This document shows, one piece after another, positions 1-19,248 of a stretch of DNA of 19,248 bases. This stretch comes from Opitutaceae bacterium. GTDB taxonomy: Bacteria; Verrucomicrobiota; Verrucomicrobiia; Opitutales; Opitutaceae. The stretch is from NCBI GenBank assembly GCA_031272375.1, contig JAISTY010000213.1, positions 1-19,248 on the forward strand, given 5' to 3'. The notes under the pieces were generated by a model. It saw only the letters and a list, made by a program, of their open reading frames with translations, was not told the DNA's origin and did not search any database. The position numbers were made by a program, and so were the translations under genes. Numbering within the stretch: the first letter of the stretch is position 1; every line of letters starts with the position of its first letter.

Positions 1-1
1 C

Positions 2-283
2 GCGCACGTCCTCAAAATCGAAAATCCGCCCGACTGGATCAACCTTGGTCGCGGCAGCGACGTCACCATCCGCGAGCTCACCGAGACCGTCGCCGAAGTC
101 GTCGGCTACACCGGGAAAATCACCTGGGACGCCACCAAGCCCGACGGCACGCCGCGCAAGCTCCTCGACGTTTCACGCCTCGACGCCCTTGGGTGGAAGC
201 CGCGCCTGACGCTCCGCGAGGGCATCGCGCAAACCTACCAAAGTTTCCTCGCCGAACTCGCCGCCGGCACCCTCCGCGGCTGA
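2..283 (+). CDS. fcl: GDP-L-fucose synthase, C-terminal 93 residues (partial, 5' end outside window)
   Basis: The frame is open from base 2 to the TGA at 281-283. The translated end contains [20 protein letters not shown] and later [15 protein letters not shown], followed by [11 protein letters not shown]. This is the characteristic C-terminus of GDP-L-fucose synthase (GDP-4-keto-6-deoxymannose epimerase/reductase, extended SDR family), which makes GDP-L-fucose in the cytoplasm for capsule or O-antigen sugars. The NAD(P) motif and the catalytic Ser-Tyr-Lys lie before the window and cannot be checked. The stop codon is part of a copy of the dispersed repeat (281-298). Another extended-SDR sugar epimerase is possible, but the [10 protein letters not shown] segment favours Fcl. 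Confidence 0.88.
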
Positions 284-298
284 CAAGCCGCCGCCGGG
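281..298 (-). repeat. Dispersed GC-rich repeat, copy 1
   Basis: TGACAAGCCGCCGCCGGG contains the complement of the core CGGCGGCTTG. It begins with the stop codon of the GDP-L-fucose synthase gene and runs into the spacer before engD. Confidence 0.7.
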
Positions 299-377
299 AT
301 CGCGCGGGGATTGCGGGGCGTGCGCGGGCCAGCTCGCCGCTTGACGCCGCGGCTTCCGGGCGGTGCCCTCGCGAACC

Positions 378-1481
378 ATGTTAAAAGCCGGTATCGTCGG
401 ACTGCCAAACGTCGGAAAATCCACCCTCTTCAACGCGCTCACCCGCTCGCGCAAGGCGGAGGCGGCGAATTATCCGTTCTGCACGATAGACCCCAACGTG
501 GGCGTCGTCACCGTGCCCGACGCGCGGCTCGGCGTGCTGCAAAAAATCGCGAAAACCGGCGTCGTCATCCCGGCGGCGGTCGAGTTTGTGGACATCGCCG
601 GCCTCGTGAAAGGCGCGAGCAAGGGCGAGGGGCTGGGCAACCAGTTCCTGTCGAACATCCGCGAGGTGGACGCCATCGTGCACGTTGTCCGCTGCTTCGA
701 GAACGCCGACATTTTGCACACGATGGGCAGCGTGGATCCGGTGCGGGACATCGAGGTCATCACGACGGAGCTGATACTGGCGGATCTGGCGTCGGTGACG
801 TCGCGGATTGAGAAGACGCAGAAGAAGGCGAAGAGCGGGGACAAGGAGGCGCAGGCGGAGCTGGCGTTGTTGCAACGGCTCGAGCCGCACCTGAACGCGA
901 ACCGGCCCGCGAACATTCTGCCGGTCAACGAGGAGGAGGCGCGGTTGATGAGGCTGTTCCAATTGCTCAGCGGCAAGCCGGTGATTTACGCGTGCAACGT
1001 GGCCGAGGGCGACCTGGCTGCGGTCAACGAGAACCCGTTTGTGAAGTCGGTGGCGGCGTTTGTGGGCGAGCACCACGACGCGGCGTTCGCGCCGATCAGC
1101 GCGCAAATCGAGGCGGAGCTGGTCGAGCTGCCGCCGGAGGAGGCGGCGGCGTTCCTGCGGGATCTGGGCGTGGAGGACTCCGGCGTGTCGGCGCTCATCA
1201 AGGCGACTTACGAACTGCTGGGGTTGCGGACGTATTTCACGGCGGGCGAGAAGGAGGTGCGCGCGTGGACGATCCGGAAGGGCTGGAAGGCGCCGCAGGC
1301 GGCGGGGGTCATCCACACGGATTTCGAGAAGGGCTTCATCAAGGCGGAGGTGGTGTCCTACGAGGATCTGGCGCGGCTGGGGAGTGTGGCGGCGGCGCGC
1401 GAGGCCGGAAAATACCGGCTGGAGGGCAAGGATTACGTTTTCCAGGACGGCGACGTGGCGCTGTTCCGTTTCAATGTGTGA
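378..1481 (+). CDS. engD: Redox-regulated/ribosome-associated ATPase YchF (EngD, Obg-like)
   Basis: The 367-residue product aligns from end to end with E. coli YchF (363 aa). The P-loop GLPNVGKS is at residues 8-15, FCTIDPN at 34-40, the G3 motif DIAG at 72-75 and KGASKGEGLGNQFL at 78-91. The G4 position reads NVAE (207-210) rather than NKxD, as expected for this ATP-preferring subfamily. The TGS-type C-terminal domain (about 283-367) includes FTAGEKEVRAWTI and ends DVALFRFNV. YchF binds the ribosome and hydrolyses ATP, and is linked to stress responses; it is cytoplasmic. ATG 378 was chosen over an in-frame GTG at 363 because homologues start at this point. No Shine-Dalgarno is visible (upstream bases end CCCTCGCGAACC). 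It converges with the gene at 1503-3587 across only 21 bases. Confidence 0.97.
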   Translation: MLKAGIVGLPNVGKSTLFNALTRSRKAEAANYPFCTIDPNVGVVTVPDARLGVLQKIAKTGVVIPAAVEFVDIAGLVKGASKGEGLGNQFLSNIREVDAIVHVVRCFENADILHTMGSVDPVRDIEVITTELILADLASVTSRIEKTQKKAKSGDKEAQAELALLQRLEPHLNANRPANILPVNEEEARLMRLFQLLSGKPVIYACNVAEGDLAAVNENPFVKSVAAFVGEHHDAAFAPISAQIEAELVELPPEEAAAFLRDLGVEDSGVSALIKATYELLGLRTYFTAGEKEVRAWTIRKGWKAPQAAGVIHTDFEKGFIKAEVVSYEDLARLGSVAAAREAGKYRLEGKDYVFQDGDVALFRFNV

Positions 1482-1502
1482 GGCGCGCGCGGGCGGGTCG
1501 CG

Positions 1503-3587
1503 TCAGGGGGCGAATTCGAGGGCGAAGAGGGACGCGTTCCGCAGGTGGATGGCGAGGGTGAAGGGATGCCCGGGAAGCCGGCTGACGGCGCCGCCCGACC
1601 AGCGGAGCGGAGCGGCGGTGGCGTCGCCGGAGAAACGGGCTGCGTCGGGGCCGGAGTAGCCGGGCAGGGGGCTGCCGCCGGCGTCGCGGACTTCGACGCG
1701 GATTTCGCCGGCGGCGGCGAGGGCGTTGAGGGCGAGGGTTTGCCCCGGCGCGGAGAGGGGTTTGGTCAGGACGGTGGCGGTCCTGTTTTCCGGGGAGAGC
1801 GAGGCCCAGCGATCCCTGCGGTAGCGGAAGAGGGCGGGGGTGGAACGCTCGCCGCGGGTGGCGTTCAGGAGGGCGTCCCAGGAGCCATACCACTTCCAGA
1901 TCGGGGAGGAGGGGAGACCGTCGGGGCCGGCCATGCGGCCTCCGTAGCGGGTCCGGTAGATGTCGTCGGGGATGGTGGAGCGGTCGGCGACGGGGGCGGC
2001 GACGAGGGCCATGAAGTGGAGGGCGTCAACGCCGTGCATGGTTTCGTAATAGTGATCGCCGAAGGCCATGCGGCGGCGGTTGGCGGTGGGGCGGGAGAAG
2101 CCGAAGTTCCATTCGCCGGGGGCGCCGTTTTTGAGAAAGGGGTTGCCGGGATCCACGCGGCGCCAGAGGACGCCGTCGCGGCTGCAAACCAGCTCGGTGG
2201 AGATTTGCTGGAGGCGGGCGTCGTAGATCTGGAGGTAGGCCATTTCGAGGGCGCCGTTCTCCTCGCGCCAGACGCGCATGTCGTAGTGCTGGAGAAAGGG
2301 GGAGTCGCCGGGGCCGGGCGGGGCGAAGGCCGCGGGCGTCCAATGGATGCCGTCGTCGCTGCTCCACGTGACCTGTATCCGGGCGGAGAAGAGGTTGTCG
2401 TAATGGACGCGGAAGGGGGCGTGGCGGGGGACGCGGCGGGTCTGCCAGAAGCGGAGGGTTTTGCCGTCGGCGGAGAGGAGCGGGCGGCCGAAGTTGTCGT
2501 TGACCGACGACCAGTCGTTTTTTTCGGGGACGCCGTTTTTGTTGGAGGGAATTTCCGTGACGGGGTTTTTGAGGACGAGGCGGAGGCCGGGGGTTTTGTC
2601 CCAGACGGAGACCACGCGGCGTCCTGGAACCTTGAAGCCGGCCCAGTCGAGGGTCTCGTGCAGGAGGCCGGTGTAATAGACGCGGACTTGCGCGATGTCG
2701 GGCGGGCCGTCGAGGGCGGGGTCGTGGGGGCGGCAGACGGCACCGGGCGGAAGGGGCGGCGCGGAGAGGTGGAGGGGGGAGTTGGCGAAGGTGGCGCCGG
2801 GGTGGGGCGGCGCGGGCTTTTTGACCGGCTCCCAGTCCCGTAGGTCGGCGCTTTTGAGCCAGTAGCGGGTGGTTTGGGCGTTCGCCATGTCGTTGCCGCG
2901 CGAGGCGCGCGCGGCGGTGACGCGGACGTTCATGGCGCCGTCGGCGTCAACGTGGAAGTCGCTGATAGTGTTCCTGGGGAAACGGGCGAGGTCGGGGTGG
3001 TTTTTCCAGGGGACGACGGGGAACAGCTCGGGCGGGTGGACGCGGCGGACGGTTCCGGCGCGGGAGGCGAGGAGCCAGTCGTCGAGGAACAACAGGCGCG
3101 TGCCGCGGACATCGCGGGGATTTTCCGGCGGGGGCGGTTCGGGGAGGGTTTGCTTGATGAGGGTGCGGACGAGCGGACGGGCGGCGGTGGCGCCGGGGGC
3201 GGGGATTTCGCGGATGCGGGTCCTGTATTGGCCGTCGGGCCTGCCGGCGATGCGGACGACGTGCTCCGCGCGCGGCGCGCCGGCGGCGAGCGTGACGCGC
3301 GCGGGCGGCGCGGGGACGCGGCGGGTGGTTTCCTCCGCGAAGGAGATTTCCAACGCGAGGGGTGCGGCGGGGCTTTTGTTTTCAAGGACGAGGACGGCCT
3401 CGCCGAGGTTAAGGTGGATGGGGAGGGAAAACTCGGCGGCGAGGCGGTCGGAGAGGGAGGCTGCCTTGGGTTTTCCCTTTTCAACTTCGACGCGGAATTC
3501 GGCGTCAAGGCGTTCGGGGAGAGAGGGCGCGGCCTGGGGAAAGAGCGGCAGCGCTGGGAGGAGGAGGGCGTGGAGGACGGCTTTCAT
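1503..3587 (-). CDS. Secreted protein with GH32/GH43-like beta-propeller repeats, function unknown
   Basis: The product has 694 residues. Residues 1-19 form a signal peptide (short basic start, then LLLPALPLFPQA). After about 160 residues of probable beta-sandwich comes a segment starting GTRLLFLDDWLL (162-173). Propeller-type repeats follow: SADLRDW (246-252), the Asp-box-like SSDDGIHW (409-416) and SRDGVLW (469-475). These SxDxGxxW/SxDLxxW signatures are typical of five-bladed glycoside hydrolases (GH32, GH43 and related families). The last about 80 residues (VEVRDAGGSPLPGYS, then FTLAIHLRNASLFALEF) match the beta-sandwich tail often seen in planctomycete and verrucomicrobial secreted glycosidase-like proteins. 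I could not assign catalytic acids or a substrate. ATG 3587 was chosen because it starts the signal peptide; the frame stays open upstream only because of GC-rich shadow coding across metH. It lies 44 bases behind metH on the same strand. Role by inference: periplasmic or extracellular sugar hydrolysis. Confidence 0.75.
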   Translation of the reverse strand: MKAVLHALLLPALPLFPQAAPSLPERLDAEFRVEVEKGKPKAASLSDRLAAEFSLPIHLNLGEAVLVLENKSPAAPLALEISFAEETTRRVPAPPARVTLAAGAPRAEHVVRIAGRPDGQYRTRIREIPAPGATAARPLVRTLIKQTLPEPPPPENPRDVRGTRLLFLDDWLLASRAGTVRRVHPPELFPVVPWKNHPDLARFPRNTISDFHVDADGAMNVRVTAARASRGNDMANAQTTRYWLKSADLRDWEPVKKPAPPHPGATFANSPLHLSAPPLPPGAVCRPHDPALDGPPDIAQVRVYYTGLLHETLDWAGFKVPGRRVVSVWDKTPGLRLVLKNPVTEIPSNKNGVPEKNDWSSVNDNFGRPLLSADGKTLRFWQTRRVPRHAPFRVHYDNLFSARIQVTWSSDDGIHWTPAAFAPPGPGDSPFLQHYDMRVWREENGALEMAYLQIYDARLQQISTELVCSRDGVLWRRVDPGNPFLKNGAPGEWNFGFSRPTANRRRMAFGDHYYETMHGVDALHFMALVAAPVADRSTIPDDIYRTRYGGRMAGPDGLPSSPIWKWYGSWDALLNATRGERSTPALFRYRRDRWASLSPENRTATVLTKPLSAPGQTLALNALAAAGEIRVEVRDAGGSPLPGYSGPDAARFSGDATAAPLRWSGGAVSRLPGHPFTLAIHLRNASLFALEFAP

Positions 3588-3631
3588 CGGGGGACGGGGA
3601 AACGCGGGCGGGTTTTCGGGGCGCGCGGAAG

Positions 3632-6280
3632 TCAGGCCGTGTCGTAGCCCAGCCACGGGCCGAGCCAGCGTTCGGCCTCCGCCACGCTCCAGCCCTTTCG
3701 CGCGGCGTAGTCCTCCAGCTGGTCGCGGCCGATTTTGCCGACGCCGAAGTATTTCGCCTCCGGCGCGTTGAAATACCAGCCGGCCACGCTGCTCGCGGGC
3801 GACATGGCGCAGGTTTCCGTCAGGCTCGCACCCGTTGCCGCCGTCGCGTCCAGCAAGGCGAACAGATCCCGTTTCGCGGTGTGGTCCGGGCAGGCCGGGT
3901 AGCCCGGCGCGGGGCGGATGCCGCGGTGCTTTTCGCGCGACAAGCCGCCGCCGTCCGCCTCCGTCCGCCCGAAGCCGCAAAAATCCCGCGCCCGCTTGTG
4001 GAACAGCGCGGCCAGCGCCTCCGCGACGCGGTCGCCCAGCGTCCGCGCCAGGATCGCCCGGTAGTCGTCGCCCTCCGCCTTGAGGCGCGCGGCCAGCGTC
4101 TCGACGCCGGCGCCCGCGGTGACGACGAAGCCGCCCACGAAATCCCGCCGCCCGGAGGCGCGCGGCGCGACGTAGTCGGCAAGGCAGTGGTTCCGATGTC
4201 CGGCGGGCTTTTCCATTTGCTGCCGCAGGCAATGGATTTTCACCGGCGGGTTGCGGCCGGCATCGAGGACGATGTCGTCGCCCTCGGCGTTCGCCGGCCA
4301 GAAACCGAGCGCGGCGCGGGGCGTGAAAAGTTCCTCGCGCCCGATCCGCGCCAGCAGCTCCTGGGCGTCCGCGAACAGCCGCTCCGCCTCGGTTCCGGTT
4401 TTCGCGTCCTTGAAAATGTCGGGATAGCGTCCGGTCAGCTCCCAGGCGGAGAAGAACGGCGTCCAGTCAATGAACGGAATCACTTCGGCGAGCGGCACCT
4501 TGTCGAAGACGCGGACGCCCGTGAACTCCGGTTCCGCGATGTCCGCCCGCGTCCAGTCAACGCGCTCCGCGTTCGTCCGCGCCTTGGCGAGCGGCAGCAA
4601 TTTCCGCGCGGCCTGCCGCGCCCCGAACTCCCCGCGCAGCCGCGCCTGCCCCGCCGCGTTTTCCGCGAGAAACCGCTCCCTGCCGTCCGACAGCAGCGCG
4701 CCGGCGACGCCCGCGACCCGCGAGGCGTCGAGCACGTGGACGACGCCGCCCGCGTATTCCGGCGCGATTTTCACCGCCGTGTGGATCGCGCTCGTCGTCG
4801 CCCCGCCGATGAGCAGGGGTGTTGAGAAACCCTCCCGCGCCAGCTCCCGCGCCACGTGGACCATCTCGTCGAGCGACGGTGTTATCAGGCCCGAAAGCCC
4901 GATGAGATCGGCGCCGAGCCGCCGCGCCTCCGAGAGGATTTTCGCGCAGGGCGTCATGACGCCGAGGTCGTGAACCTCGTAGCCGTTGCAGGCCAGCACG
5001 ACGCCCGCGATGTTTTTGCCGATGTCGTGGACGTCGCCCTTCACCGTGGCGAGGACGACGCGTCCGCGGGAGGCGGCGGCGCCCCGCCGCTCCGCCTCCA
5101 TCAACGGCTCCAGGAGGGCGACGGCGCGCTTCATCACGCGGGCGCTTTTCACGACCTGGGGCAGGAACAGTTTGCCGGCGCCGAACAAGTCGCCGACGGC
5201 GCGCATCCCGTCCATCAGCGGCCCCTCGATGATTTCAAGGGGGCGCAGGGTTTTCAGCGCCTCCGCCGTGTCGGCCTCGACGAAGGCGTCCGCGCCCCGC
5301 GTCAGGGCGGTCGCGAGGCGTTTTCCGACGGGTTCGTCGCGCCAGGTTTCCCTCGCGGCGGCTTGTCGCGCCGCGCCCGCGCCGTCCGCGGCGGCGGCTT
5401 GTCGCGCCTTGAGATCCCCGGCCAGCGCGACGAGGCGCTCGGTGGCGTCGGGGCGGCGGTTGAGGAGCACGTCCTCCACGCGGTCGCGCAGCTCCGGTTC
5501 GATGGCCTCATAACGCCCCAGCATTCCCGCGTTGACGATCGCCATGTCCAGTCCGGCGCGGATGGCGTGGTGGAGGAAGACGGTGTGGAGGGCCTCGCGG
5601 ACGGGGTTGTTGCCCCGGAAGGCGAAGGAGACGTTGGAGATGCCGCCCGAGACGCGCGCGCCCGGCAGGGTTGCCTTGATAATCCGCGTCGCCTCGAAGA
5701 AATCCACGGCGTAGTCCGCGTGCTCCTCCATGCCGGTGGCGACGGTGAGAACGTTCGGGTCGAAGAGGATGTCGTCGGGCGCGAGGCCGGCGCGCTCCGT
5801 GAGGAGTTTGTAGGCGCGGGAGCAGATGCGCACCTTGTCGGCTTTCGTGACGGCCTGGCCCTGCTCGTCGAAGGCCATGACAACCGCCGCGGCGCCGTAG
5901 CGCCGCAGCAGCCGCGCGCGCCGCAGGAACTCCGCCTCGCCGTCCTTCAGCGAGATCGAGTTCACGACGCCCCTGCCCTGGAGGCAGCGGAGGCCGGCCT
6001 CAATGACGGACCACCTGGACGAGTCGATCATGACGGGCACGCGGGCAATGTCCGGCTCGGACGCGACGAGGTTGAGGAAGCGCGTCATCGCCGCCTCGCC
6101 GTCCACGAGGGCCTCATCAACGTTGACATCAATGATGGAGGCGCCGCCGGCGACCTGCTGGCGGGCGATTTCGAGCGCGGCGCCCCAGTCGCCCGACCGG
6201 ATGGCGCGGGCGAATTTCGGCGAGCCGGTGATGTTGGCGCGCTCGCCGACGACAATGAAACCCGATGCGTTTTTGCTCAT
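3632..6280 (-). CDS. metH: Cobalamin-dependent methionine synthase, core lacking the homocysteine-binding domain (split MetH)
   Basis: The 882-residue product matches E. coli MetH from its second module onward. The pterin-binding module starts [10 protein letters not shown] (11-20) and continues with MIDSSRW and [15 protein letters not shown]. The B12 cap has EGPLMDGM and [14 protein letters not shown]. The B12-binding domain has DVHDIGKN, whose His418 is the lower cobalt ligand, then [13 protein letters not shown] and IGGATTS. The activation domain binding S-adenosylmethionine has [12 protein letters not shown] (789-800) and ends WLGPWLGYD. The N-terminal module of about 350 residues with the zinc cysteines is absent, and a stop codon in the same frame (that of proA) lies upstream, so a separate partner must supply homocysteine. 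ATG 6280 was chosen; an in-frame TTG at 6361 is possible but adds only non-homologous residues. Residues 292-309 hold a 12-residue duplication (ARQAAA repeated) and 777-782 read GGGLSR, both from the dispersed repeat. Codon third bases are mostly C in the first half and mostly G in the second. Confidence 0.95.
3935..3952 (-). repeat. Dispersed GC-rich repeat, copy 2 (inside metH)
   Basis: The minus strand reads GGCGGCGGCTTGTCGCGC and is translated in metH as GGGLSR, in a variable loop just before the conserved S-adenosylmethionine-binding motif. E. coli MetH shows no such glycine run at this place. Confidence 0.75.
5355..5408 (+). repeat. Dispersed GC-rich repeat, copies 3 and 4 (36-base tandem spacing inside metH)
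   Basis: The 18-mer GCGGCGGCTTGTCGCGCC occurs identically at 5355-5372 and 5391-5408. The 36-base period keeps the frame, so the metH protein gains two ARQAAA blocks twelve residues apart, in the linker between the pterin and B12 modules. Confidence 0.85.
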
Positions 6281-6394
6281 GGAGAATGCGGAGGAACCGT
6301 CCTTGGAGAACGGCGCCACAATTCCGCCCGTCGCCGCGCTTGCAACCCCAAGCCCCGACAAATCCCCGCCCGCCGATGCGTTGCCGGGCCGCCG

Positions 6395-7699
6395 TCAGCC
6401 GCGCGTCTGCCCGTCGCCGAGGATCTGGTATTTATAGGTGCAGAGTTCGGGCAGCCCCATCGGGCCGCGGGCGTGCAGGCGGTCCGTGCTGATGCCGATC
6501 TCGGCGCCGAAGCCGAACTCGAAGCCGTCGCTGAAGCGCGTGCTGGCGTTCCAGAACACGCAGGCGCTGTCCACGCCGGCCAGGAACCGCGCGGCGGTGT
6601 CCGCGTTGGAGGTGACGATGGCGTCGCTGTGACCGGAGCCGTCGCGGTTGATGACGGCAACGGCCTCGTCGAGGCCCGCGACGACGCGGATGTTGAGGTC
6701 GAGGGAGAGGTATTCGGCGGTGTTGTCGGCCTTGCGGGCGGGGGTGAAGGGGAGGCTGTTTTCGCGGAGGATGGCGGCGGCTTGTCCGGCGGCGTGGAGG
6801 GTGACGTTTTTGGCGAGGAGGGCGCGGGCGAGGCCGGGGAGGAGTTTTTGGGCGGCGGGGGCGTCAACGAGCAGTTGTTCGAGGGCGTTGCAGACGCCCG
6901 TGCGCTGGGTTTTCGCGTTGACGAGGATTTTCTCGGCGAGGGCGGGGTCGGCGTCGCGGTCAACGAAGAGGAAACAGACGCCGTTGTAGTGCTTGATGAC
7001 CGGGATGGTGGAGGTTTTGGCGACGAAGCGGATGAGGGACTCGCCGCCGCGGGGGATGACGCAGTGGACGAGGCTGTTGAGCTTGAGGAGGGTTTTGAGG
7101 GCGGCGCGGTCGGTGGTGGGGATGAGCTGGGCGGCGTCGGCGGGCAGGCCGGCGGCGGCGAGCGCGCCGGCGATGAGTTTCGCAAGGGCGGTGTTGGTGT
7201 TGAAGATCTCCCTGCCGCCGCGGAGGATGGAGGCGTTGCCGGACTTCAGGCAGAGGACGGCGCAGTCAACGGTGACGTTGGGGCGGGCCTCGTAGATGAT
7301 GGCGATGACGCCGATGGGGACGCGGATTTTGCGGATGACGAGGCCGTTGGGGCGCGCGGTTTCGGAGAGGACGTCGCCGACGGGGTCGGGCAGGGCGGCG
7401 ACCTGGCGGACGGACTCGGCGAGGTGGGCGAGGCGCTCGGGGTTGAGGGTGAGGCGGTCAATTTGCGCGGGTGTGAGGGCGTTGTCCCTCGCGGCGGCGA
7501 GGTCGAGGGCGTTGGCGGCGAGGATGGCGCCGGTGTTTTCGGGGGCCTCGAGCCGGCGGGCGAGGTCGAGGAGCGCGGCGTTCTTTTGGGCGGCGGGGGC
7601 GTTGGCGAGAACGAGGGAGGCGGCGCGGGCGCGCCGGGCGATGCGGGTGACGGTCGCGGCGAGGGAGGGAACCTTGGTGTTGTCGGCGGTGGTGCTCAT
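6395..7699 (-). CDS. proA: Glutamate-5-semialdehyde dehydrogenase (gamma-glutamyl phosphate reductase)
   Basis: The product has 434 residues, close to the usual 415-430. Family landmarks include VPIGVIAIIYEARPNVT (127-143), LKSGNASILRGG (151-162), VIPRGGESLI, VIKHYNGVC, and the catalytic cysteine Cys270 in QRTGVCNALEQLL. The later segments EYLSLDLNIRVV, HSDAIVT, WNASTRFSDGFEFGFGAEIGIST and RGPMGLPELCTYKY are also present. The enzyme reduces gamma-glutamyl phosphate with NADPH to glutamate-5-semialdehyde, the second step of proline synthesis, in the cytoplasm. No proB (glutamate 5-kinase) is in the window. ATG 7699 gives a normal N-terminus; the leader is pyrimidine-rich (TTTTCCTCCC) with no Shine-Dalgarno. 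A copy of the dispersed repeat is translated as GQAAA near residue 305, in a variable stretch. metH follows 114 bases downstream on the same strand and may be co-transcribed. Confidence 0.97.
   Translation of the reverse strand: MSTTADNTKVPSLAATVTRIARRARAASLVLANAPAAQKNAALLDLARRLEAPENTGAILAANALDLAAARDNALTPAQIDRLTLNPERLAHLAESVRQVAALPDPVGDVLSETARPNGLVIRKIRVPIGVIAIIYEARPNVTVDCAVLCLKSGNASILRGGREIFNTNTALAKLIAGALAAAGLPADAAQLIPTTDRAALKTLLKLNSLVHCVIPRGGESLIRFVAKTSTIPVIKHYNGVCFLFVDRDADPALAEKILVNAKTQRTGVCNALEQLLVDAPAAQKLLPGLARALLAKNVTLHAAGQAAAILRENSLPFTPARKADNTAEYLSLDLNIRVVAGLDEAVAVINRDGSGHSDAIVTSNADTAARFLAGVDSACVFWNASTRFSDGFEFGFGAEIGISTDRLHARGPMGLPELCTYKYQILGDGQTRG
6773..6790 (+). repeat. Dispersed GC-rich repeat, copy 5 (inside proA)
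   Basis: GGCGGCGGCTTGTCCGGC on the plus strand; in proA it is read as AGQAAA in a variable segment after the catalytic-cysteine region. Confidence 0.65.
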
Positions 7700-7710
7700 G
7701 GGAGGAAAAT

Positions 7711-7728
7711 CGGCGGCAGCTTGCCGGG
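7711..7728 (+). repeat. Dispersed GC-rich repeat, copy 6 (A-variant, upstream of proA)
   Basis: CGGCGGCAGCTTGCCGGG lies 11 bases ahead of the proA start codon (7699, minus strand). It has the CAGCTTG variant, which in this window is found only in copies next to start codons. Confidence 0.7.
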
Positions 7729-7731
7729 CGG

Positions 7732-7895: not shown

Positions 7896-9419
7896 ATGCT
7901 CAAGAAACTTTTCAAAAAACTCCGCGGCTCCCTTTCCGCGAAACCGGCGTCCGCAAAAGCCGCGAAACCGGCGTCCAAGCCCGCCCCGCAACCTTCCCGG
8001 AAGCCCGCCGCCGGACGGCGCGGCGCCTCCGAGCGCCCCTCCCATGGCGACCGCGCCGGCGGCGGCTTGTCCCGCCGCGACGCCCGCGGTCACGACGCCC
8101 GCCAGCGGCGGGGCGGACGGCGCGACGGCGGCGGGCGCCCTCCCGCCCGCGGAGCCGGCTTCGAGCTGCCCGCGCGCGCCTCCGTCAAGCCCGCCGCGCC
8201 CGTGGAGATTCCCCCGCAGGACACCCCGTTTTCCCGGCTTGGGCTTTCCGATCCGCTCGCCTTCGCGGTCTCCGAGATGGGCTACACCGCCCCCACGCCC
8301 ATCCAGGAGAAGGCCATCCCCGTCGTCCTGTCGGGGCGCGATGTCACCGGCTCCGCGCAGACCGGCACCGGCAAGACGGCCGCGTTCGCCCTGCCCATCC
8401 TCCAGCGTCTTGGGGCGCATGGGCGGCTCCGCTGCCTCATCCTCGAGCCGACGCGCGAGCTGGCCATCCAGGTCGAGGAGGCGTTCCAGAATTTCGCCCG
8501 GCACACCGACCTTGCCGCCACCGTCGTCTATGGCGGCGTCGGCTACGGCCGGCAGCGCGAGGAGCTTGCGAGGGGCGTGGACGTCCTCGCGGCGACGCCG
8601 GGGCGCCTGCTCGACCACATCGAGCAGGGCACGGTCAGCCTTTCCGGCATCGAAATCCTCGTCCTCGACGAGGTGGATCACATGCTCGACATCGGCTTTC
8701 TGCCGGACGTCCGGCGCATCGTCGGGCTTTGCCCCAAGAATCGCCAGACGCTCTTCTTCACGGCGACGCTTCCGCCCGAGCTTGTGCAGCTCTCCAGCTG
8801 GGCGCTGCGCGACCCCGTTGACATCCGCATCGCCGCCAACCGAGCCCCCGCCGAGACCGTCTCGCACGCGTTCTATCCGGTTGTTGACCGCCAGAAATTC
8901 GACCTTCTCCTCGAAGTGCTCCGCCGCACGGACTTCAAGTCCGTCATCATTTTCACGCGGACGAAAATGGGCGCCGACCGCATCGCCCGCCGGCTGCTGA
9001 AGGAGAACCACAGCGTCGGCGTCATCCATTCCGACCGCAACCAGCGCGAGCGCGTCGAGGCGCTCGAGGGCTTCCGCTCCGGCAGGTTCGAGATCCTTGT
9101 GGCCACGGACATCGCCGCGCGCGGCCTCGACATCGCCGGCGTCTCGCACGTCATCAACTACAACGTTCCCGAAAACCCGGAGGACTACGTCCACCGCATC
9201 GGGCGCACGGGGCGGGCGCGGATGACGGGCGACGCCTTCACGCTTGTCGCGGAGGACGAGGCGCGCGACGCCCGCTCCATCGAGCGGTTCATCGGCGCGG
9301 AGGTTGAGCGCAAGAAGCTCGACGGCTTCCCCTACATTTACTCGGCGGTTTTCGACGAGGCGCAGCAGACCGCCGCGGCGCCGAAGCCGGTCAACCGCCT
9401 TGTCCGCGGCTCCCGTTGA
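7896..9419 (+). CDS. DEAD-box ATP-dependent RNA helicase (RhlE/CshA type) with basic N-terminal extension
   Basis: The product has 507 residues. Residues 1-105 form a Lys/Arg/Ala/Pro/Gly-rich low-complexity extension that may add RNA binding and includes GGGLSR (55-60) from the dispersed repeat. The helicase core follows in order: Q motif with PTPIQ (133-137), motif I AQTGTGKT (154-161), Ia PTRELA (185-190), Ib TPGR, motif II DEVD (258-261) instead of DEAD, motif III TAT (289-291), motif IV IIFTRT (351-356), motif V TDIAARGLDI, and motif VI HRIGRTGR (433-440). It unwinds RNA duplexes in mRNA decay or ribosome assembly. The start ATG 7896 opens with a short basic-amphipathic stretch; the frame is open upstream but only as antisense to proA. 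Val in motif II is a conservative variant. No Shine-Dalgarno is visible. Confidence 0.95.
   Translation: MLKKLFKKLRGSLSAKPASAKAAKPASKPAPQPSRKPAAGRRGASERPSHGDRAGGGLSRRDARGHDARQRRGGRRDGGGRPPARGAGFELPARASVKPAAPVEIPPQDTPFSRLGLSDPLAFAVSEMGYTAPTPIQEKAIPVVLSGRDVTGSAQTGTGKTAAFALPILQRLGAHGRLRCLILEPTRELAIQVEEAFQNFARHTDLAATVVYGGVGYGRQREELARGVDVLAATPGRLLDHIEQGTVSLSGIEILVLDEVDHMLDIGFLPDVRRIVGLCPKNRQTLFFTATLPPELVQLSSWALRDPVDIRIAANRAPAETVSHAFYPVVDRQKFDLLLEVLRRTDFKSVIIFTRTKMGADRIARRLLKENHSVGVIHSDRNQRERVEALEGFRSGRFEILVATDIAARGLDIAGVSHVINYNVPENPEDYVHRIGRTGRARMTGDAFTLVAEDEARDARSIERFIGAEVERKKLDGFPYIYSAVFDEAQQTAAAPKPVNRLVRGSR
8058..8076 (+). repeat. Dispersed GC-rich repeat, copy (inside helicase N-terminal extension)
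   Basis: GGCGGCGGCTTGTCCCGCC is read in frame as GGGLSR, the same peptide as the copy near the 3' end of metH, and lies in the disordered N-terminal extension. Confidence 0.75.
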
Positions 9420-12338: not shown

Positions 12339-12357
12339 TCACGAATCATTCCAACCG

Positions 12358-12390
12358 AACGGCGCCCGTCCCACGGACGCCGTTTTTTTT
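12358..12390 (+). terminator. Intrinsic (rho-independent) terminator of the secreted-protein gene
   Basis: AACGGCGCCCGT (12358-12369), loop CCC, then ACGGACGCCGTT pairs as a 12-base-pair stem with one C-A mismatch. It runs directly into a T-tract ending at 12390. It starts 20 bases after the stop codon. It is the only textbook intrinsic terminator seen in the window. Confidence 0.85.
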
Positions 12391-12453
12391 GCGCCGATGA
12401 GGAGGGCGTCCGGGCGCCGGACCGGGGTATTTTGCGCTGGCAAGACGGGCGGC

Positions 12454-12471
12454 GGGCGGCAGCTTGCGGGG
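12454..12471 (+). repeat. Dispersed GC-rich repeat, A-variant, upstream of glgA
   Basis: GGGCGGCAGCTTGCGGGG ends 4 bases before the glgA ATG at 12476, occupying the place of a ribosome-binding site as in the nfeD-like gene. Confidence 0.65.
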
Positions 12472-12475
12472 CGTC

Positions 12476-13948
12476 ATGAACGCCCTGAAAATTCTCTTTG
12501 TTTCGCCCGAGGTGGATCCCTTCGTGAAAGTCGGCGGGCTGGCGGACATGGCGGGTTCCCTCCCGAAGGGGCTTGCCGCGCTGGGACACGACGTGCGCGT
12601 CGTCTGCCCGTATTACGGGCTGGCGCGGGAACGCCCGGGCTGGACGGCGCTGGAGGAGACTCTGGGCGTGGACGTCGGCCCGCGGGCGCTTTGGGCGCGG
12701 ACATGGCGGACCACGCTGCCGGGGTCGCGCGTGCCGGTTTATCTGATTGAACACGATGCGTTTTTTGCGCGCGGCGGGGTTTATGACGGGCCCTGGGGGC
12801 CGCACGGCGACAACGACCTGCGCTTCGCCTTCCTGTGCCGCGCGGCGCTGGCGTTGTGCCAGCAATTGCGCTGGATCCCCGACGTCGCGCACGGGCACGA
12901 CTGGACGACGGGGCTGCTGCCGGTGTTGCTGAACACGACCCTCCGCGCGACGGAGCTGGGCCGGGTGGCGTCGGTTTTCACCATCCACAACCTGGAGCAC
13001 CAGGGCTACGCGAACCCGCGCGTGCTGGATTTCGCGCGCATTCCCCGGAGCGAGTTCCGCCCGGACAGCGTGGAGTCGTTCGGCTCGGTCAACATGATGA
13101 AGGCCGGGCTGTATCACTCGACGAAGCTCACGACCGTCAGCCCGACTTACGCGCGGGAGATACGCACCCCGGAGGGCGGCTGGGGGCTGGATCCGGTGCT
13201 CCGCTTCCGCGGCGGCGACCTGATCGGGATACTCAACGGCATTGACACGACCGTCTGGAACCCGGCCACGGACCGCCTCCTCGCGGCGCGCTACGACGAG
13301 GGCGACCTGCGCGGCAAGGCGCTTTGCAAGGCCGCCCTGCGGGAGGAAACGGGACTGGCGGCGGACGCCGACGCCCCCGTGTTCGGCGTGGTGTCGCGGC
13401 TCGCCTCCCAAAAGGGGCTTGACCTGCTGGCGGCGGCGCTGCCGCGCGTGATGGAGGAAATGCGGGTGCAATTCGTGATTTTGGGAACCGGCGACGCCGG
13501 GCTTCAGGACGCGTTCTCCGGGCTGGCGGCGCGCCACCGCGGGCGGCTGGCGGCGCGCATCGGCTACAGCAACGAGCTGTCGCACCGCATCCAGGCGGGA
13601 TCGGATTTCTTTGTGATGCCGAGCCGCGCCGAGCCGTGCGGCCTGACGCAGATGTATGCGATGAACTACGGCACGCCGCCGATTGTCCGCGCCACGGGCG
13701 GGCTGGCGGACACCGTGGAGCAATACGCCGAGGGGAAGGGCCTCGGCACGGGCTTCCTCTTCGGCGAGGCGAGCGCGCGGGCGCTGTATTACACCATCGG
13801 CTGGGCCTGCTCGACGTTCTACGACCGCCCCGCGGATCTTGCCGCGCTCCGCGCGAACGGCATGCGGAAGGATTTCTCCTGGAACCGCAGCGCCGAGCGC
13901 TACGAGGAGGTCTATCGTTGGGCGGTGGAGGCGCGGCGGCGCGCCTGA
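12476..13948 (+). CDS. glgA: Glycogen synthase (ADP-glucose type, GT5)
   Basis: The product has 490 residues (usual 470-500). The ADP-glucose-binding KVGGLAD lies at residues 18-24 within ILFVSPEVDPFVKVGGLADM. Family motifs follow: DVAHGHDWTTGLLP, FTIHNLEHQGYA, TTVSPTYAREI, GILNGIDTTVWNP, VVSRLASQKGLDLL (about 302-315, with the phosphate-binding Arg and Lys), GTGDAGLQ, and SRAEPCGLTQMYAMNYGT (about 382-399) with the catalytic-site Glu. It transfers glucose from ADP-glucose to the growing alpha-1,4-glucan in the cytoplasm. ATG 12476 was chosen over the in-frame TTG at 12464 because MNALKILFVSPE is the normal start. The downstream phosphohexomutase (76-base gap, same strand) supports a storage-polysaccharide module. 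glgC and glgB are not in the window. Confidence 0.96.
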   Translation: MNALKILFVSPEVDPFVKVGGLADMAGSLPKGLAALGHDVRVVCPYYGLARERPGWTALEETLGVDVGPRALWARTWRTTLPGSRVPVYLIEHDAFFARGGVYDGPWGPHGDNDLRFAFLCRAALALCQQLRWIPDVAHGHDWTTGLLPVLLNTTLRATELGRVASVFTIHNLEHQGYANPRVLDFARIPRSEFRPDSVESFGSVNMMKAGLYHSTKLTTVSPTYAREIRTPEGGWGLDPVLRFRGGDLIGILNGIDTTVWNPATDRLLAARYDEGDLRGKALCKAALREETGLAADADAPVFGVVSRLASQKGLDLLAAALPRVMEEMRVQFVILGTGDAGLQDAFSGLAARHRGRLAARIGYSNELSHRIQAGSDFFVMPSRAEPCGLTQMYAMNYGTPPIVRATGGLADTVEQYAEGKGLGTGFLFGEASARALYYTIGWACSTFYDRPADLAALRANGMRKDFSWNRSAERYEEVYRWAVEARRRA

Positions 13949-14024
13949 GGCCTCCCCGCCCCCGCCTCCGCCGAAAAAACGCTTTGCGCCCCGTCGCTTT
14001 GGGGAAAGGCTGCCGCGATTTTTT

Positions 14025-15989
14025 ATGAACACACCGCTCCCGCAAATCGAGGCGGCCGCCAGGGCCGGACAACTGCTGCCATCATCATTGGAAAACCTGC
14101 GCGCGTGGCTCGCGGCGCCCCTGCCCGAATGGGCGCGGGCCAGCATCGGCGAACTGGTTGGCGCGGGCGACTGGGCCGAGTTGAACAACCGCTTTTACCG
14201 CCACATGGAGTTCGGCACGGGCGGCATCCGCGGGCGCACCATCGGCGCCTCGCCGACGGCGGCGGAACTGGGGCGGACCGGCCCCTTCGGAACGCCGGAG
14301 CACGCGGGCGTCGGCTCCAACATCCTCAACGACTTCAACCTGCTGCGGGCGGTCATGGGGCTGTTCGCCCACGTGAAAAACTACCTCGCGGAGGAGGGCC
14401 GCCCCGACGTGCCGGCGCTCGTGATCGCCCACGACGTCCGGCATTTCTCGCGGCATTTTTGCGAGCTGGCGGCGTCCGCGTGGACGCGCCTCGGCGGGCA
14501 GGCGTTCATCTTCGACGGCCCGCGCCCTACACCGCAGTTGAGCTTCTCCGTGCGCCACCTGCGCGCCCACGCGGGCGTGGTCATCACCGCGAGCCACAAC
14601 CCGCCGCACGACAACGGCTTCAAGGCTTACTTCGAGGACGGCGCGCAGGTCGTCGCGCCCCACGACGCGGGCATCGTCGCCGAGGTCAACAAGGTGCCGC
14701 TGGAGGCGACCCTGCCGTTCCTGGACAAGGATCTCGGGCGCGTCGTGACGCTCGGACGGAAGGCCGACGAGGCCTACCGCGCCGCCGCGATGCGGGCGGT
14801 CATTGACCCCTCGGTTTTCGGCAGGGCGGGACCGCGGGTGGCGTTCACGAACATCCACGGCGCGGGCGGCGTCGCGGCCCCGGCCCTGCTGGAGGCCGCT
14901 GGCTGCGAGGTGCATTGCGTCGCCGAGCAGGCCGCCTTCGACCCGCGCTTCCCGACGGTGAAATCGCCCAACCCCGAGAACCCCGAGGCCCTCGCGCTGG
15001 CCGTCAGACTGGCCGAGACCAACGGACTCGACGCGGTGATGGCGACCGACCCGGACTGCGACCGCATGGGCGTCGCCGTGCGCGGACGCGACGGCCGCAT
15101 GGCGTTGCTGACGGGCAACCAGGTCGGCTGCCTCCTGGCCGATTACCGCCTCTCCAAACTCAAGGAAACCGGCATGATTCCCCCCCGCGGCTCGGACTCC
15201 GTCGTGCTCGTGACGACCTTCGTGACGACGCGCCTGATGAACGCCATCGGCGCCGCCCACGGGGTCCGGGTCATCAGCACCCTGACGGGCTTCAAGTGGA
15301 TCGCCGCGAAGCTGCGCGGCTACGAGGAACGCCTGAAAAAAAGCCTGCTCGAAAAAACCGGCATGGCGCTGGACTACGACGCCACGGAATTCGCCACGCG
15401 CGCCTGGCTGCTCCGCGAGCACAGCGCCTTCTACGCCTTCGGCTGCGAGGAAAGCTACGGCTACCTGCCCAACGACCTCGTCCGCGACAAGGACGGCAAC
15501 GCCGCCTGCCTGATGTTCGCCGAGTTGTGCGCCTGGGTGAAAAACCGCGGCCTCACGGTGCCGGAATACCTCGACGGAATTTACCTGAAGCACGGCTTCC
15601 ACGCCGAGGACGTCATCAACCTCTACTACGAGGGCGCGAGCGGCGCGGAAAAAATCCGCCGCATCCTCGACTCCTACCGCGACAACCCGCCGGCTGCCTT
15701 CGGAGACGTCCCCGTGCGGCGCTTCAACGACTTCGGGCGCCAGGTCTTCAAGGACGCCGACGGCGAGGTCATCCCGAAACAGGACCTCTACATCGTGGAG
15801 CTGGCCAACGGCCACAGCTTCGCCGCGCGCGGCTCGGGCACGGAGCCGAAAATGAAGTTCTACCTCTTCGCCAGCGGAAAGGCGGCGGACGCCCGCGAAC
15901 TCGGCGCGGTGAAGGAGCGGACGCGCGCGGAGCTGGCGCGCCTGAAGGCCCTCATCGAGGCCGACGCGAAACGCCGCGCGGAAGGGTAG
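14025..15989 (+). CDS. Phosphoglucomutase/phosphomannomutase family protein (PGM2-like)
   Basis: The product has 654 residues, longer than the common 550-600 for this subfamily. Alpha-D-phosphohexomutase signatures are complete. FGTGGIRGRTIG near the N-terminus marks the PGM2-like branch. The phosphoserine loop TASHNPPHDNGFKAYF has Ser190 as the catalytic residue. The metal loop is DPDCDRMG (Asp342, Asp344, Asp346), the sugar-specificity loop GCEESYGYLPND starts at 473, and the phosphate-binding loop RGSGTEPK is at 602-609. It interconverts hexose 1- and 6-phosphates (glucose, perhaps mannose) in the cytoplasm. Directly behind glgA, its likely role is the glucose-6-P/glucose-1-P step of glycogen turnover. 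Start ATG 14025 lies behind a GATTTTTT run with no Shine-Dalgarno; upstream frame is open but overlaps glgA. Confidence 0.94.
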   Translation: MNTPLPQIEAAARAGQLLPSSLENLRAWLAAPLPEWARASIGELVGAGDWAELNNRFYRHMEFGTGGIRGRTIGASPTAAELGRTGPFGTPEHAGVGSNILNDFNLLRAVMGLFAHVKNYLAEEGRPDVPALVIAHDVRHFSRHFCELAASAWTRLGGQAFIFDGPRPTPQLSFSVRHLRAHAGVVITASHNPPHDNGFKAYFEDGAQVVAPHDAGIVAEVNKVPLEATLPFLDKDLGRVVTLGRKADEAYRAAAMRAVIDPSVFGRAGPRVAFTNIHGAGGVAAPALLEAAGCEVHCVAEQAAFDPRFPTVKSPNPENPEALALAVRLAETNGLDAVMATDPDCDRMGVAVRGRDGRMALLTGNQVGCLLADYRLSKLKETGMIPPRGSDSVVLVTTFVTTRLMNAIGAAHGVRVISTLTGFKWIAAKLRGYEERLKKSLLEKTGMALDYDATEFATRAWLLREHSAFYAFGCEESYGYLPNDLVRDKDGNAACLMFAELCAWVKNRGLTVPEYLDGIYLKHGFHAEDVINLYYEGASGAEKIRRILDSYRDNPPAAFGDVPVRRFNDFGRQVFKDADGEVIPKQDLYIVELANGHSFAARGSGTEPKMKFYLFASGKAADARELGAVKERTRAELARLKALIEADAKRRAEG

Positions 15990-16003
15990 GGCGGCGCGCC
16001 CCC

Positions 16004-16020
16004 GCGACAAGTTGCCGCGC
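16004..16020 (-). repeat. Variant copy of the dispersed repeat between phosphohexomutase and leuC
   Basis: GCGACAAGTTGCCGCGC matches the complement of the repeat except that CAAGCYGCCG reads CAAGTTGCCG. It starts 15 bases after the stop codon, in the 138-base spacer, and is itself nearly palindromic (CGCG-A-CAAGTTG-C-CGCG). Confidence 0.45.
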
Positions 16021-16127
16021 CCGCGCCGCCGCCGCGCCGCGCGCCCATTTCCGTTGAAATGAGTGTTTCCAACCCGTCCGAACTTCCGCCACCCTCCGCG
16101 CCTCACATTCACATCCTCCCGCCAGCC

Positions 16128-17564
16128 ATGTCCGCCAACGCCGCCTCCTCCACGCCCAAATCCCTCTTCCAGAAAGTCTGGGACGCCCACTCCGTCCGCA
16201 CCCTCGCCAACGGGCAGACCCAGCTCCTCATCGGCGCGCACCTCATCCACGAGGTCACAAGCCCGCAGGCCTTCGGCATGTTGCGCGACCTCGGCCTCAA
16301 GGTCGCCATGCCCTCCCGCACCTTCGCCACCGTTGACCACATCATCCCCACCGACCAGCTCGCCGAACCCTACCGCGACCCGCTCGCCCAGGCCATGATG
16401 GACGAGCTCCGCAAAAACTGCCGCGACAACGCCATCACCTTCTTCGACCGCGCCACCGGCTGCCAGGGCATCGTCCACATCGTCGGTCCCGAGCAGGGCA
16501 TCACCCAGCCCGGCATCACCATCGCCTGCGGCGACTCCCACACCTCCACCCCCGGCGCCTTCGGCGCCATCGCCTTCGGCATCGGCACCACCCAGATCCG
16601 CGACATCCTCGCCACGCAAACAATGGCGTTCTCGCCCCTCAAAGTCCGCCGCATCGAGGTCAACGGCGCCCTCCCCCCAGGCGTCTATGCCAAGGACGTC
16701 ATCCTCCACATCATCCGCGTCCTCGGCGTCAACGGCGGCACCGGCTACGCCTACGAATACGCCGGCTCCACCTTCGACAACTTCTCCATGGAGGAGCGCA
16801 TGACCGTCTGCAACATGTCCATCGAGGGCGGCGCCCGCGTCGGCTACGTCAACCCCGACCAGACCACCTTCGACTACCTCCAGGGTCGCCCCTACTCCCC
16901 GAAGGGCGGCGACTGGGACGCCGCCGTCGCCCGCTGGCGTTCCTTCGCCTCCGACCCCGGCTGCCACTACGACGACATCGTCAAAATCAACGCCGCCGAC
17001 ATCCCCCCCACCGTCACCTGGGGCATCAACCCCGGTCAGGGCCTCCCCATCAACGGAAACATCCCCGACCCCGCCGCCGCCGCCACGCCCGACGAGCGCG
17101 CCTCCATCACCGAGGCCCTCGCCTACATGCGGTTCACCCCCGGCGCCCCCGTCAAGGGCACCCCCGTCAACGTCGCCTTCCTCGGCTCCTGCACCAACGG
17201 GCGCTTGAGCGATTTCCAGGAGGTCGCCCGCCATATCAAGGGCCGCCGCGTCGCCCCCGGCGTCCGCGCCCTCGCCGTCCCCGGCTCCCAGGCCGTCGCC
17301 AAGATCTGCGAGGCCAACGGCATCGCCAAAACCCTCGCCGACGCCGGCTTTGAATGGCGCGGCGCCGGCTGCTCCATGTGCCTCGCCATGAACCCCGACA
17401 AACTCGTCGGAGACCAGATCTGCGCCTCCTCCTCCAACCGCAACTTCAAGGGCCGCCAGGGCAGCGTCACCGGACGCACCCTCCTCATGTCCCCGCTCAT
17501 GGTCGCCGCCGCCGCCGTCACCGGCCGCGTCGCCGACGCCCGCGAAGTCTTCAACCTCACCTGA
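16128..17564 (+). CDS. leuC: 3-isopropylmalate dehydratase large subunit
   Basis: The product has 478 residues (E. coli LeuC has 466). [13 protein letters not shown] opens the family domain. Then come [35 protein letters not shown], and [21 protein letters not shown]. The [4Fe-4S] ligands are Cys355 in FLGSCTNGR and Cys415 and Cys418 in [13 protein letters not shown]. With LeuD it isomerises 2-isopropylmalate to 3-isopropylmalate in leucine synthesis, in the cytoplasm. ATG 16128 gives a homologue-like N-terminus; the in-frame ATG 16059 would add 23 Pro/Ser-rich residues and cannot be fully excluded. No leucine-rich leader peptide or attenuator was seen upstream. Codon use is extremely C-ending, more so than in most genes here. 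leuD follows after 14 bases. Confidence 0.97.
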
Positions 17565-17578
17565 CCGAATTCCTCACC

Positions 17579-18181
17579 ATGCTGCCAAAAATCACACAAG
17601 TCTCCGGCACCGCCGTCTTCGTTCCCGGCAACGACATTGACACCGACCGCATCATCCCGGCCCGCTTCATGAAATGCGTCACCTTCGACGGCCTCGGACA
17701 ATACCTCTTCTTCGACGTCCGCCACACCCCGGACGGGCGCCCCGTCCAGCCGCCGCACTCCATTGACGACCCGCGCTTCAAGGGCGCCACCCTCCTCCTC
17801 TCCGGCGCCAACTTCGGCTGCGGCAGCTCCCGCGAGCACGCGCCCCAGGCCATCCACAAGGCCGGCTTCCGCGCCATCATCGCCGAAAACTTCGCCGAAA
17901 TCTTCTTTGGCAACAGCACCACCCTCGGCATCCCCTGCGTCAACGCCACCCGCGACGACATCGCCCGCCTCGCCGCCGCCATCGCCCAAAACCCCTCCCT
18001 CCAGGTCACCCTCGACCTCGATAAAATGGAGGCCCGCTTTGGCTCCGATAAAATCCCCGTCACCCAGCGCGAAAGCGCCCGCGACGCCCTCCGCAACGGA
18101 CACTGGGACGCCATCGGCGACCTCCTCGAAGCCGCCCCCGCCGCCGCCGCCCTCGCCAGAAAACTCGGCTACATCGCCTGA
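17579..18181 (+). CDS. leuD: 3-isopropylmalate dehydratase small subunit
   Basis: The product has 200 residues (E. coli LeuD has 201). Landmarks are TAVFVPGNDIDTDRIIPARFMK, GANFGCGSSREHAPQAI, and IIAENFAEIFFGNSTTLGIP. The swivelling small subunit forms the isopropylmalate isomerase heterodimer with LeuC, encoded 14 bases upstream, so the pair is surely co-transcribed. The start ATG 17579 follows CCTCACC with no Shine-Dalgarno; translation may be coupled to the end of leuC. Convergent with the hydrolase gene on the other strand. Confidence 0.97.
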   Translation: MLPKITQVSGTAVFVPGNDIDTDRIIPARFMKCVTFDGLGQYLFFDVRHTPDGRPVQPPHSIDDPRFKGATLLLSGANFGCGSSREHAPQAIHKAGFRAIIAENFAEIFFGNSTTLGIPCVNATRDDIARLAAAIAQNPSLQVTLDLDKMEARFGSDKIPVTQRESARDALRNGHWDAIGDLLEAAPAAAALARKLGYIA

Positions 18182-18196
18182 CGGAACCGCGCTCGC

Positions 18197-18222
18197 GGCG
18201 CGGCACCTTGCCGCCCCGCGCC
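18197..18222. terminator. Possible bidirectional terminator between leuD and the hydrolase gene
   Basis: GGCGCGG (18197-18203) and CCGCGCC (18216-18222) form a 7-base-pair stem between two convergent genes. Only a short TTT follows on the plus strand, so termination strength is uncertain. Confidence 0.3.
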
Positions 18223-18242
18223 TTTGCCCGCGCCGCCGCCGT

Positions 18243-19118
18243 TCACTTCCGCTGCGACAGCAGCCAGTCGTGAAACAGCGGGTTGGCGTAGGTGCGCGTG
18301 AAGACATCGTGCCCGCCCCCCTTGTAAATCGTGAGGACAACCTGCCGCGCCCCGGCCTTTTTCAACGCCTCCACCATCTCCACCGAACGCCCGATCGGCA
18401 CCTTCGTGTCCGCGTCCCCGTGAAAAACCCAAATCGGCACGCCGCTCATCCGCCCCGCCCACTCCGTCTTCCCTCCCCCGCAAATCGGCGCCGCCGCCGC
18501 GAACCGCCCCGGCGCCTCGGCCAGCAGCATCCACGTCCCGAACCCGCCCAGGCTCAACCCCGTGACATACACGCGCGACTTGTTGATTTTCAATTCCTTC
18601 TCAACCTCGTCGAGCAACGCCAGCAATTGCCGCGGCGACCAGCGGGCGCCGGCCTTGCACTGCGGCGAAACCACCACCGCCGGATAAGCCGCCGCCCACG
18701 CCGGCTCCTCCAACAGCTTCGCCATCCCGTGCCGCATGACCTTCGCCGGCTCGCTGCCGCGCGACCCCGCCCCGTGCAAAGACAGCACCAACGGCGCCCC
18801 TTCCGCGGCGGCTTGTCGCCCGTAATCCGCCGGCAAAAACAGCCAGTAAAACACCTCCTCCGTCCCCGCCTCTGACGCCGGCGGCCTGGCGTCCTGCCCG
18901 ACGGGGCGGTTGAGGACGTCGCGCTGGTAATTCCAGTCGCTCGTGTTCGCGGGCAAGGTCGCCTTCCGCAACACCTGCGCGCCCGGCCGCGGCTCCGAAA
19001 CCACCGCCGGCGCCGCCCCCGGAGTTGTCTCCGCCGCCGGCAACGCCGCGGCAAACGCGAAAAAAGCCGCTGTCGCGGCGGAACAGAACAGGGAAACACG
19101 AAGAAGTTTTGGAGCCAT
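18243..19118 (-). CDS. Secreted alpha/beta hydrolase (esterase/dienelactone hydrolase-like)
   Basis: The product has 291 residues. A signal peptide spans about 1-29 (MAPKLLRVSLFCSAATAAFF, then hydrophobic to LPAAE). The alpha/beta-hydrolase fold shows the oxyanion-region LSLHGAGSRG (112-121), the nucleophile elbow GLSLGG with Ser189, an acid in FHGDADTKVP (Asp235 or Asp237), and His270 in KGGGHDVF. Such PHB-depolymerase/feruloyl-esterase-like proteins with LFLPADYG early in the domain cleave esters, often acetyl or feruloyl groups on plant polysaccharides; the substrate here is not determined. ATG 19118 was chosen over an in-frame GTG at 19145 because it begins the signal peptide. An AGGGG lies two bases ahead, too close for a good Shine-Dalgarno. 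A copy of the dispersed repeat is read as RQAAA (101-105), in the surface loop between the LFLPADYG and LSLHGAG strands. Confidence 0.88.
   Translation of the reverse strand: MAPKLLRVSLFCSAATAAFFAFAAALPAAETTPGAAPAVVSEPRPGAQVLRKATLPANTSDWNYQRDVLNRPVGQDARPPASEAGTEEVFYWLFLPADYGRQAAAEGAPLVLSLHGAGSRGSEPAKVMRHGMAKLLEEPAWAAAYPAVVVSPQCKAGARWSPRQLLALLDEVEKELKINKSRVYVTGLSLGGFGTWMLLAEAPGRFAAAAPICGGGKTEWAGRMSGVPIWVFHGDADTKVPIGRSVEMVEALKKAGARQVVLTIYKGGGHDVFTRTYANPLFHDWLLSQRK
18805..18822 (+). repeat. Dispersed GC-rich repeat, copy inside the hydrolase gene
   Basis: GCGGCGGCTTGTCGCCCG shares its first 15 bases with the two metH linker copies and is read in the gene as GRQAAA, at a loop just before the oxyanion strand. 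Confidence 0.75.
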
Positions 19119-19248
19119 GCCCCTGTTGCATCCCCCAGCGCGCACCGTCGCAACCCGCTTTTCCTGATTTCTAAATTCGCCGGCAGCCAGTAGTCAGCGC
19201 AACACTTCAGAGGGAGGCGGAGGAGACGGAGGCTGGTGCGGGCATGGC

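Follow-up and report, generated by a model that had tools for sequence, protein, structure and literature searches.

What removed the palindrome RTCGAY from a contig in which TCGA itself is frequent is the question addressed here. The contig (C146; JAISTY010000213.1 of the Opitutaceae assembly GCA_031272375.1) was analysed over its whole length of 19,248 bases, referred to below as the window; the assembly comprises 1,461,740 bases in 242 contigs and is 67.6% complete. The avoidance of RTCGAY is real and extreme. It is best explained, in our judgement with good probability, by selection under Type II restriction that is present now or was so until recently.

Extent and level of the depletion

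The window contains one RTCGAY, where 200 dinucleotide shuffles gave 22.2 ± 4.6. Grouped by flanking bases, its 87 TCGA were 34 R..R, 33 Y..Y, 19 Y..R and 1 R..Y. A first-pass annotation of the window had described near-complete avoidance with a single site, had listed YTCGAY and RTCGAR as common and had concluded that both flanks matter; the shuffles and the flank counts bear this out. Its tally of 41 Ile-Asp or Val-Asp codon pairs in the called genes was reproduced exactly (ATT 13, GTT 13, GTG 13, ATA 1, ATC 1, GTC 0), the one ATC pair being the remaining RTCGAY (Table 1).

The flank count was extended to 83 of the 242 contigs (520,500 readable of 547,336 bases; ten contigs were N only), and RTCGAY was predicted from the counts of the other three flank classes. 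These contigs held 953 R..R, 916 Y..Y, 650 Y..R and 19 R..Y sites. With 1,343 predicted, RTCGAY was about 70-fold rarer than expected (odds ratio 0.014). The last 20 contigs, unused before, gave 179, 197, 133 and 5 in the same order, with about 265 predicted for the last class. Named relatives were taken as the best 80 of 230 loci by FloA match, with 78–89% identity to the FloA of the window; by title almost all of them belong to Verrucomicrobiota, with Opitutaceae prevailing at the top of the ranking, which makes this the likely family of the window. The genome-wide observed/expected comparison proposed by the annotation thus returned strong depletion, 0.014 against 0.87 for the relatives pooled. 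Single loci of relatives with at least 60 TCGA (68 of the 80) ranged from 0.27 to 2.10.

Sites were also counted over the whole assembly, in which N stretches are probably uncounted: GTCGAC was found six times, against 215 for its reversal CAGCTG as a control, and ATCGAC 16 times on one strand and 9 times on the other. Markov counts and codon tables were drawn from nominally 61–63 contigs, seven of them N only. The maximum-order Markov ratio for RTCGAY was 0.05 (14 observed, 285.8 expected), the lowest of the degenerate palindromes, a value that makes the depletion look milder than it is, since the flanking pentamers are depleted as well. In a ranking of 1,249 degenerate palindromic hexamers by synonymous shuffling, RTCGAY stood at 0.029; the only lower ranks went to patterns with a GTAC core and to GTCGAC, which is itself one of the RTCGAY sites.

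The depletion acts on DNA and not on codons. Gene calling by codon usage gave 337 genes in 422 kb. RTCGAY was seen 13 times in frame 0 (231.8 expected by independence), never in frame 2 (17.9 expected) and once in intergenic DNA (15.8 expected); frame 1, with just four TCGA, was uninformative. Within-gene synonymous shuffling predicted 438.5 ± 10.5 against the 13 observed, and gave ratios of 1.04 for RTCGAR, 1.14 for YTCGAY and 0.88 for YTCGAR. Two reading frames and the spacers thus share the loss, which also withstands synonymous shuffling; this places it at the DNA level. Most potential RTCGAY sites do fall in frame 0, as one would expect if Ile-Asp and Val-Asp were subject to a codon-pair bias or an effect of translation, but such an explanation is refuted by the loss in frame 2 and between genes and has practically no standing. 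Phe-Asp keeps TTC (86%) and Leu-Asp keeps CTC (80%), and in the 80 named relatives 85% of the Ile codons and 53% of the Val codons preceding Asp are ATC and GTC, respectively. A literature search for codon pairs linked with restriction-site avoidance returned nothing. The annotation was right that no simple codon preference is involved; a loss limited to the in-frame codon pair, the result it had named as telling against itself, was not what was found, frame 2 and the spacers being depleted as well.

Escape codons: selection or deamination

Two causes had been put forward in the first-pass annotation, a restriction specificity and a cytosine methylase whose 5-methylcytosine (m5C) deaminates. 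In the window's genome Ile before Asp was encoded as ATT 159, ATA 57 and ATC 7 (before Glu, ATT 32, ATA 4 and ATC 260), and Val before Asp as GTG 192, GTT 167, GTC 6 and GTA 1 (before Glu, GTG 85, GTT 28 and GTC 280). ATT thus makes up 71% and ATA 25.6% of Ile before Asp (ATA 1.4% before Glu); GTT makes up 46% and GTG 52.5% of Val before Asp (GTG 21.6% before Glu). A second codon table was compiled for another depleted genus, g2, from 15 stretches of the genomes G001, G078 and G101. Val-Asp pairs there used GTG 204, GTT 29, GTC 18 and GTA 6, and Val-Glu pairs GTG 79, GTT 26, GTC 146 and GTA 3. GTT is nearly flat (11.3% before Asp, 10.2% before Glu), and GTG reaches 79% before Asp. Among 151 Ile-Asp pairs in g2, 124 used ATT, 18 ATC and nine ATA.

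An m5C hotspot would lose its sites by C-to-T change only, and the rise of ATA and GTG is at odds with this. Selection is the better reading, with restriction as its likely source, because C-to-T change yields neither ATA nor GTG. Purely mutational loss, in which a methylase acting at RTCGAY would turn it by deamination into RTTGAY or RTCAAY, draws on the high shares of ATT and GTT before Asp, GTT having risen out of proportion, and on ATTGAC at 1.6 times expectation both in the window's genome and in g2. The Ile-Asp pairs of g2, which escape mainly to ATT, also lean against selection alone. This account is nevertheless very improbable: in addition to the ATA and GTG escapes and the flat GTT of g2, GTTGAC and GTCAAC stand at just 1.07, the frame 2 sites, which are not silently deaminated, have gone as well, and the C5-cytosine methylase family PF00145 has no match in the incomplete assembly. 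A smaller share of deamination, or plain transition bias, may contribute. Restriction, the first of the two proposed causes, accordingly kept its place, the loss extending through the genome, both between genes and in two reading frames (0 and 2), and being centred on RTCGAY, which a restriction-site filter for Bifidobacterium breve also lists (see below); deamination as the main cause was not supported by the codon tables. A footprint this strong makes it possible to test whether sites were lost through deamination of methylated bases or through selection against cutting, which are readily confused.

Restriction as the probable cause, and the other avoided palindromes

The agent would be a restriction-modification system that the genome either retains or has lost not long ago. 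Any RTCGAY left unprotected by the cognate methylase would be open to cleavage by a Type II enzyme. Each new RTCGAY would then be costly through occasional cleavage, and under long-lasting selection any change removing a site would be kept, whether a transition (ATC or GTC to ATT or GTT before Asp) or a transversion (giving ATA or GTG). Two features expected of Type II avoidance were found, namely a symmetric site depleted beyond composition and codon usage, and a loss that is independent of frame and extends into spacers. Symmetric hexamers with R/Y degeneracy are typical of Type II sites.

One-mismatch neighbours of RTCGAY were tabulated for the cores TCTA, TTGA, TGGA, TCGG and ACGA with their complements (GCGA was left out). 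They lay between 0.58 and 2.36 of expectation, except GTCTAC/GTAGAC at 0.21; by synonymous shuffle this pair numbered 16 against 60.5. In the named relatives GTCTAC stands at 0.82, and its scarcity here points to a second or broader avoidance. GTATAC, two mismatches away, was at 0.42. HincII-type GTYRAC, which the annotation had set apart as not avoided, was just mildly low (0.77 by synonymous shuffle).

The same degenerate palindrome occurs in the available part of PMC12592239, where the restriction-site filter for guides in B. breve UCC2003 consists of CTGCAG, RTCGAY and GGCGCC. The likeness lies in the site; B. breve is an actinobacterium, with three systems. Its methylase genes BbrI–III were all essential, which was taken to confirm active restriction enzymes (PMC5514069, in the part available). 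A different conflict at the DNA level, such as a non-classical defence nuclease or modification, or a DNA-binding factor that makes RTCGAY toxic, would accommodate the failure to find, in the five families searched, a methylase shared by the depleted genomes. We consider it improbable, since a symmetric R/Y hexamer with its tabulated neighbours mostly spared is what a Type II enzyme would see, and since RTCGAY belongs to the B. breve filter.

According to the sections of PMC4687349 at hand, site avoidance arises from orthodox Type II systems only, is stronger where these are long-resident and can persist as a trace of lost ones. RTCGAY resembles such cases as a palindrome underrepresented across the host genome. 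It differs in degree, at 0.05 (Markov) and 0.014 (odds ratio) against a cut-off of 0.78 there, which refers to another measure (Kr), and in that the enzyme is not in hand here. Nothing on RTCGAY was found in the available parts of PMC6045613 and PMC4618763, and the literature searched did not yield any description of RTCGAY being avoided in Opitutaceae. Phenomena of this kind are known. What makes the present one noteworthy is how strong it is, which sites are avoided and that the enzyme is missing.

The avoided sites include three further palindromes. GTAC is absent from the window, occurs six times in the called genes against 435 by synonymous shuffle, and has a density of 21 per Mb in the genome against 768 in the named relatives. 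CTAG was found 0 times in genes against 23 expected, four times in 520 kb, and at 8 per Mb against 487 in the named relatives; scarcity of CTAG is common in bacteria. GRGCYC, a BanII-type site, occurs four times in the window against 51.6 in shuffles, and 56 times in the called genes against 544.8 by synonymous shuffle. CTNAG is also scarce (37 against 227). Several footprints of one kind favour a general, restriction-driven cause and make the lack of methylases more striking. They predict the specificities of enzymes unseen in the genome, namely RTCGAY, GTAC and GRGCYC. With RTCGAY, GTAC, CTAG and GRGCYC near zero and no complete methylase found, it is conceivable, though a long shot, that the lineage purges such sites instead of methylating them. 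If so, its own or community nucleases could hit incoming DNA, and the chromosome would be spared mainly for want of targets.

Relatives and the search for an enzyme

The family set consisted of 200 genomes, in which the window's genus g1 is represented by the window's genome only. Fewer than 1,000 ATCGAC places, both strands together, were found in eight: the window's genome, G001, G078, G101 and G120 (g2), G150 and G178 (g44), and G037, whose first contig sampled is AT-rich (GC 0.41, 3.5 kb). Densities of ATCGAC plus GTCGAT were obtained for 20 genomes picked by eye. They were 17 per Mb in the window's genome, 74–102 in G078, G101 and G001, 224–313 in G178, G120, G037 and G150 (273 in G120), 432 in G137, 450 in G049 and 705–1,179 in the remaining ten. 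In the stretches of G001 that carry methylase genes the depletion was weaker, with 41 RTCGAY in 120 kb, one of these falling in the 20 kb of the first contig; in 39 kb of G178 the Markov ratio was 0.62 (30 against 48.6). A LeuC tree of 27 genomes, a single-gene and weakly supported tree in which g2 is not a clade, grouped g1 with g46 and g3, away from g2 and g44. Independent origins of the depletion are likely.

Five of the ten genomes in the highest range, G134, G117, G052, G076 and G099, are also poor in GTCGAC (16–27 per Mb; 4 in the window's genome). Their ATCGAC plus GTCGAT is normal at 797–965 per Mb, whereas all four RTCGAY forms are nearly absent from the window's genome; we take theirs to be a SalI-type pattern.

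Methylases were searched with PF00145, PF07669, PF02086, PF02384 and PF01555, the comparison covering 16 or 20 chosen genomes; PADLOC was applied to eight proteins, all from relatives. The outcome weighs against restriction in several respects. In the window's genome, where endonuclease families were not scanned, neither a methylase nor an endonuclease for RTCGAY came to light. PF07669, PF02086 and PF02384, like PF00145, had no match in the 67.6% that is assembled, and PF01555 gave two fragments, one in C56 that runs into the contig end and another in C154 that a stop interrupts. Profile searches for methylases in the depleted G001, which is 98% complete, produced no obvious candidate. With four avoided palindromes, several methylases would be expected in an assembly that covers as little as two thirds of the genome; three or four of these genes are unlikely all to have fallen into the unassembled third, unless binning loses the islands that carry them. 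To this is added the GTT:GTG ratio of the escape codons, 167:192 before Asp and 28:85 before Glu, in which GTT is over-proportionate, so that there is some transition or deamination excess in the window's genome.

A lost RTCGAY system, of which the depletion is the fading trace, is a sub-case that overlaps with the restriction reading. It would account for the failure to find a cognate enzyme in the incomplete genome and for the graded depletion of g2 (74–102, 273, 432 and 450 per Mb), a pattern that decay or unequal exposure would produce, and such traces have been described (PMC4687349, in the sections at hand). The roughly 70-fold depletion would require a very recent loss, however, and the recent loss of several systems seems less likely than their being missed in an incomplete genome; we regard a relic as possible but doubtful. 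The sole lead in this genome is the C56 fragment, of an N6_N4 methylase gene that may be complete in the cell. In translation the fragment adjoins two remnants resembling Phd antitoxins.

No methylase from the five families emerged as common to the depleted genomes among those chosen, nor did the distribution of any methylase examined match that of the depletion among the relatives; PF00145 has no match in the depleted G101 either (88% complete). G001 encodes a HaeII-type methylase, one beside a DpnI-family gene, a Type IIG-like protein and two C5 types; a fourth PF00145 match is a frame of 188 amino acids near the start of contig C8. The following were rejected. The pair in G001:C5 is HaeII-type (RE_HaeII), and therefore not specific for RTCGAY. 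The pairs in G178:C355 and G134:C55 are MvaI/BcnI- and EcoRII-type, and that in G101:C231 is PstI/BsuBI-type. The C5 methylase with an HNH neighbour (G078, G117) occurs in seven of the 200 genomes, five of which are not depleted (G015, G052, G092, G117 and G191; 705–960 ATCGAC plus GTCGAT per Mb). The C5 methylase of G001:C12, which matches the second half of the profile only, has matches in eight of the 200, the other seven lying outside the group of eight that fall below 1,000 ATCGAC places. The N6_N4 methylase of G001, G078, G101, G120 and G072 probably recognizes GATC, to judge from its DpnI-family neighbour in G001 and G072.

Table 1. Positions of the sites and genes discussed (window coordinates unless a locus is named)
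Feature	Position	Strand	Basis
Window nearly free of RTCGAY	1–19248	none	shuffles, TCGA flank table
Sole RTCGAY of the window (GTCGAT on +, ATCGAC on -)	6023–6028	none	sequence count
Called gene containing this RTCGAY	3635–6259	-	codon-usage gene call
GRGCYC sites	74–79, 8842–8847, 12788–12793, 16404–16409		
N6_N4 methylase fragment, cut at contig end	L205 (C56), about 6780–7367		
N6_N4 methylase directly upstream of DpnI-family endonuclease gene	L133 361–2415 (G001:C9); L130 376–2436 (G072:C197)		

DpnI cuts methylated GATC, and in view of this target the pairing of an N6_N4 methylase with a DpnI-family gene is odd.

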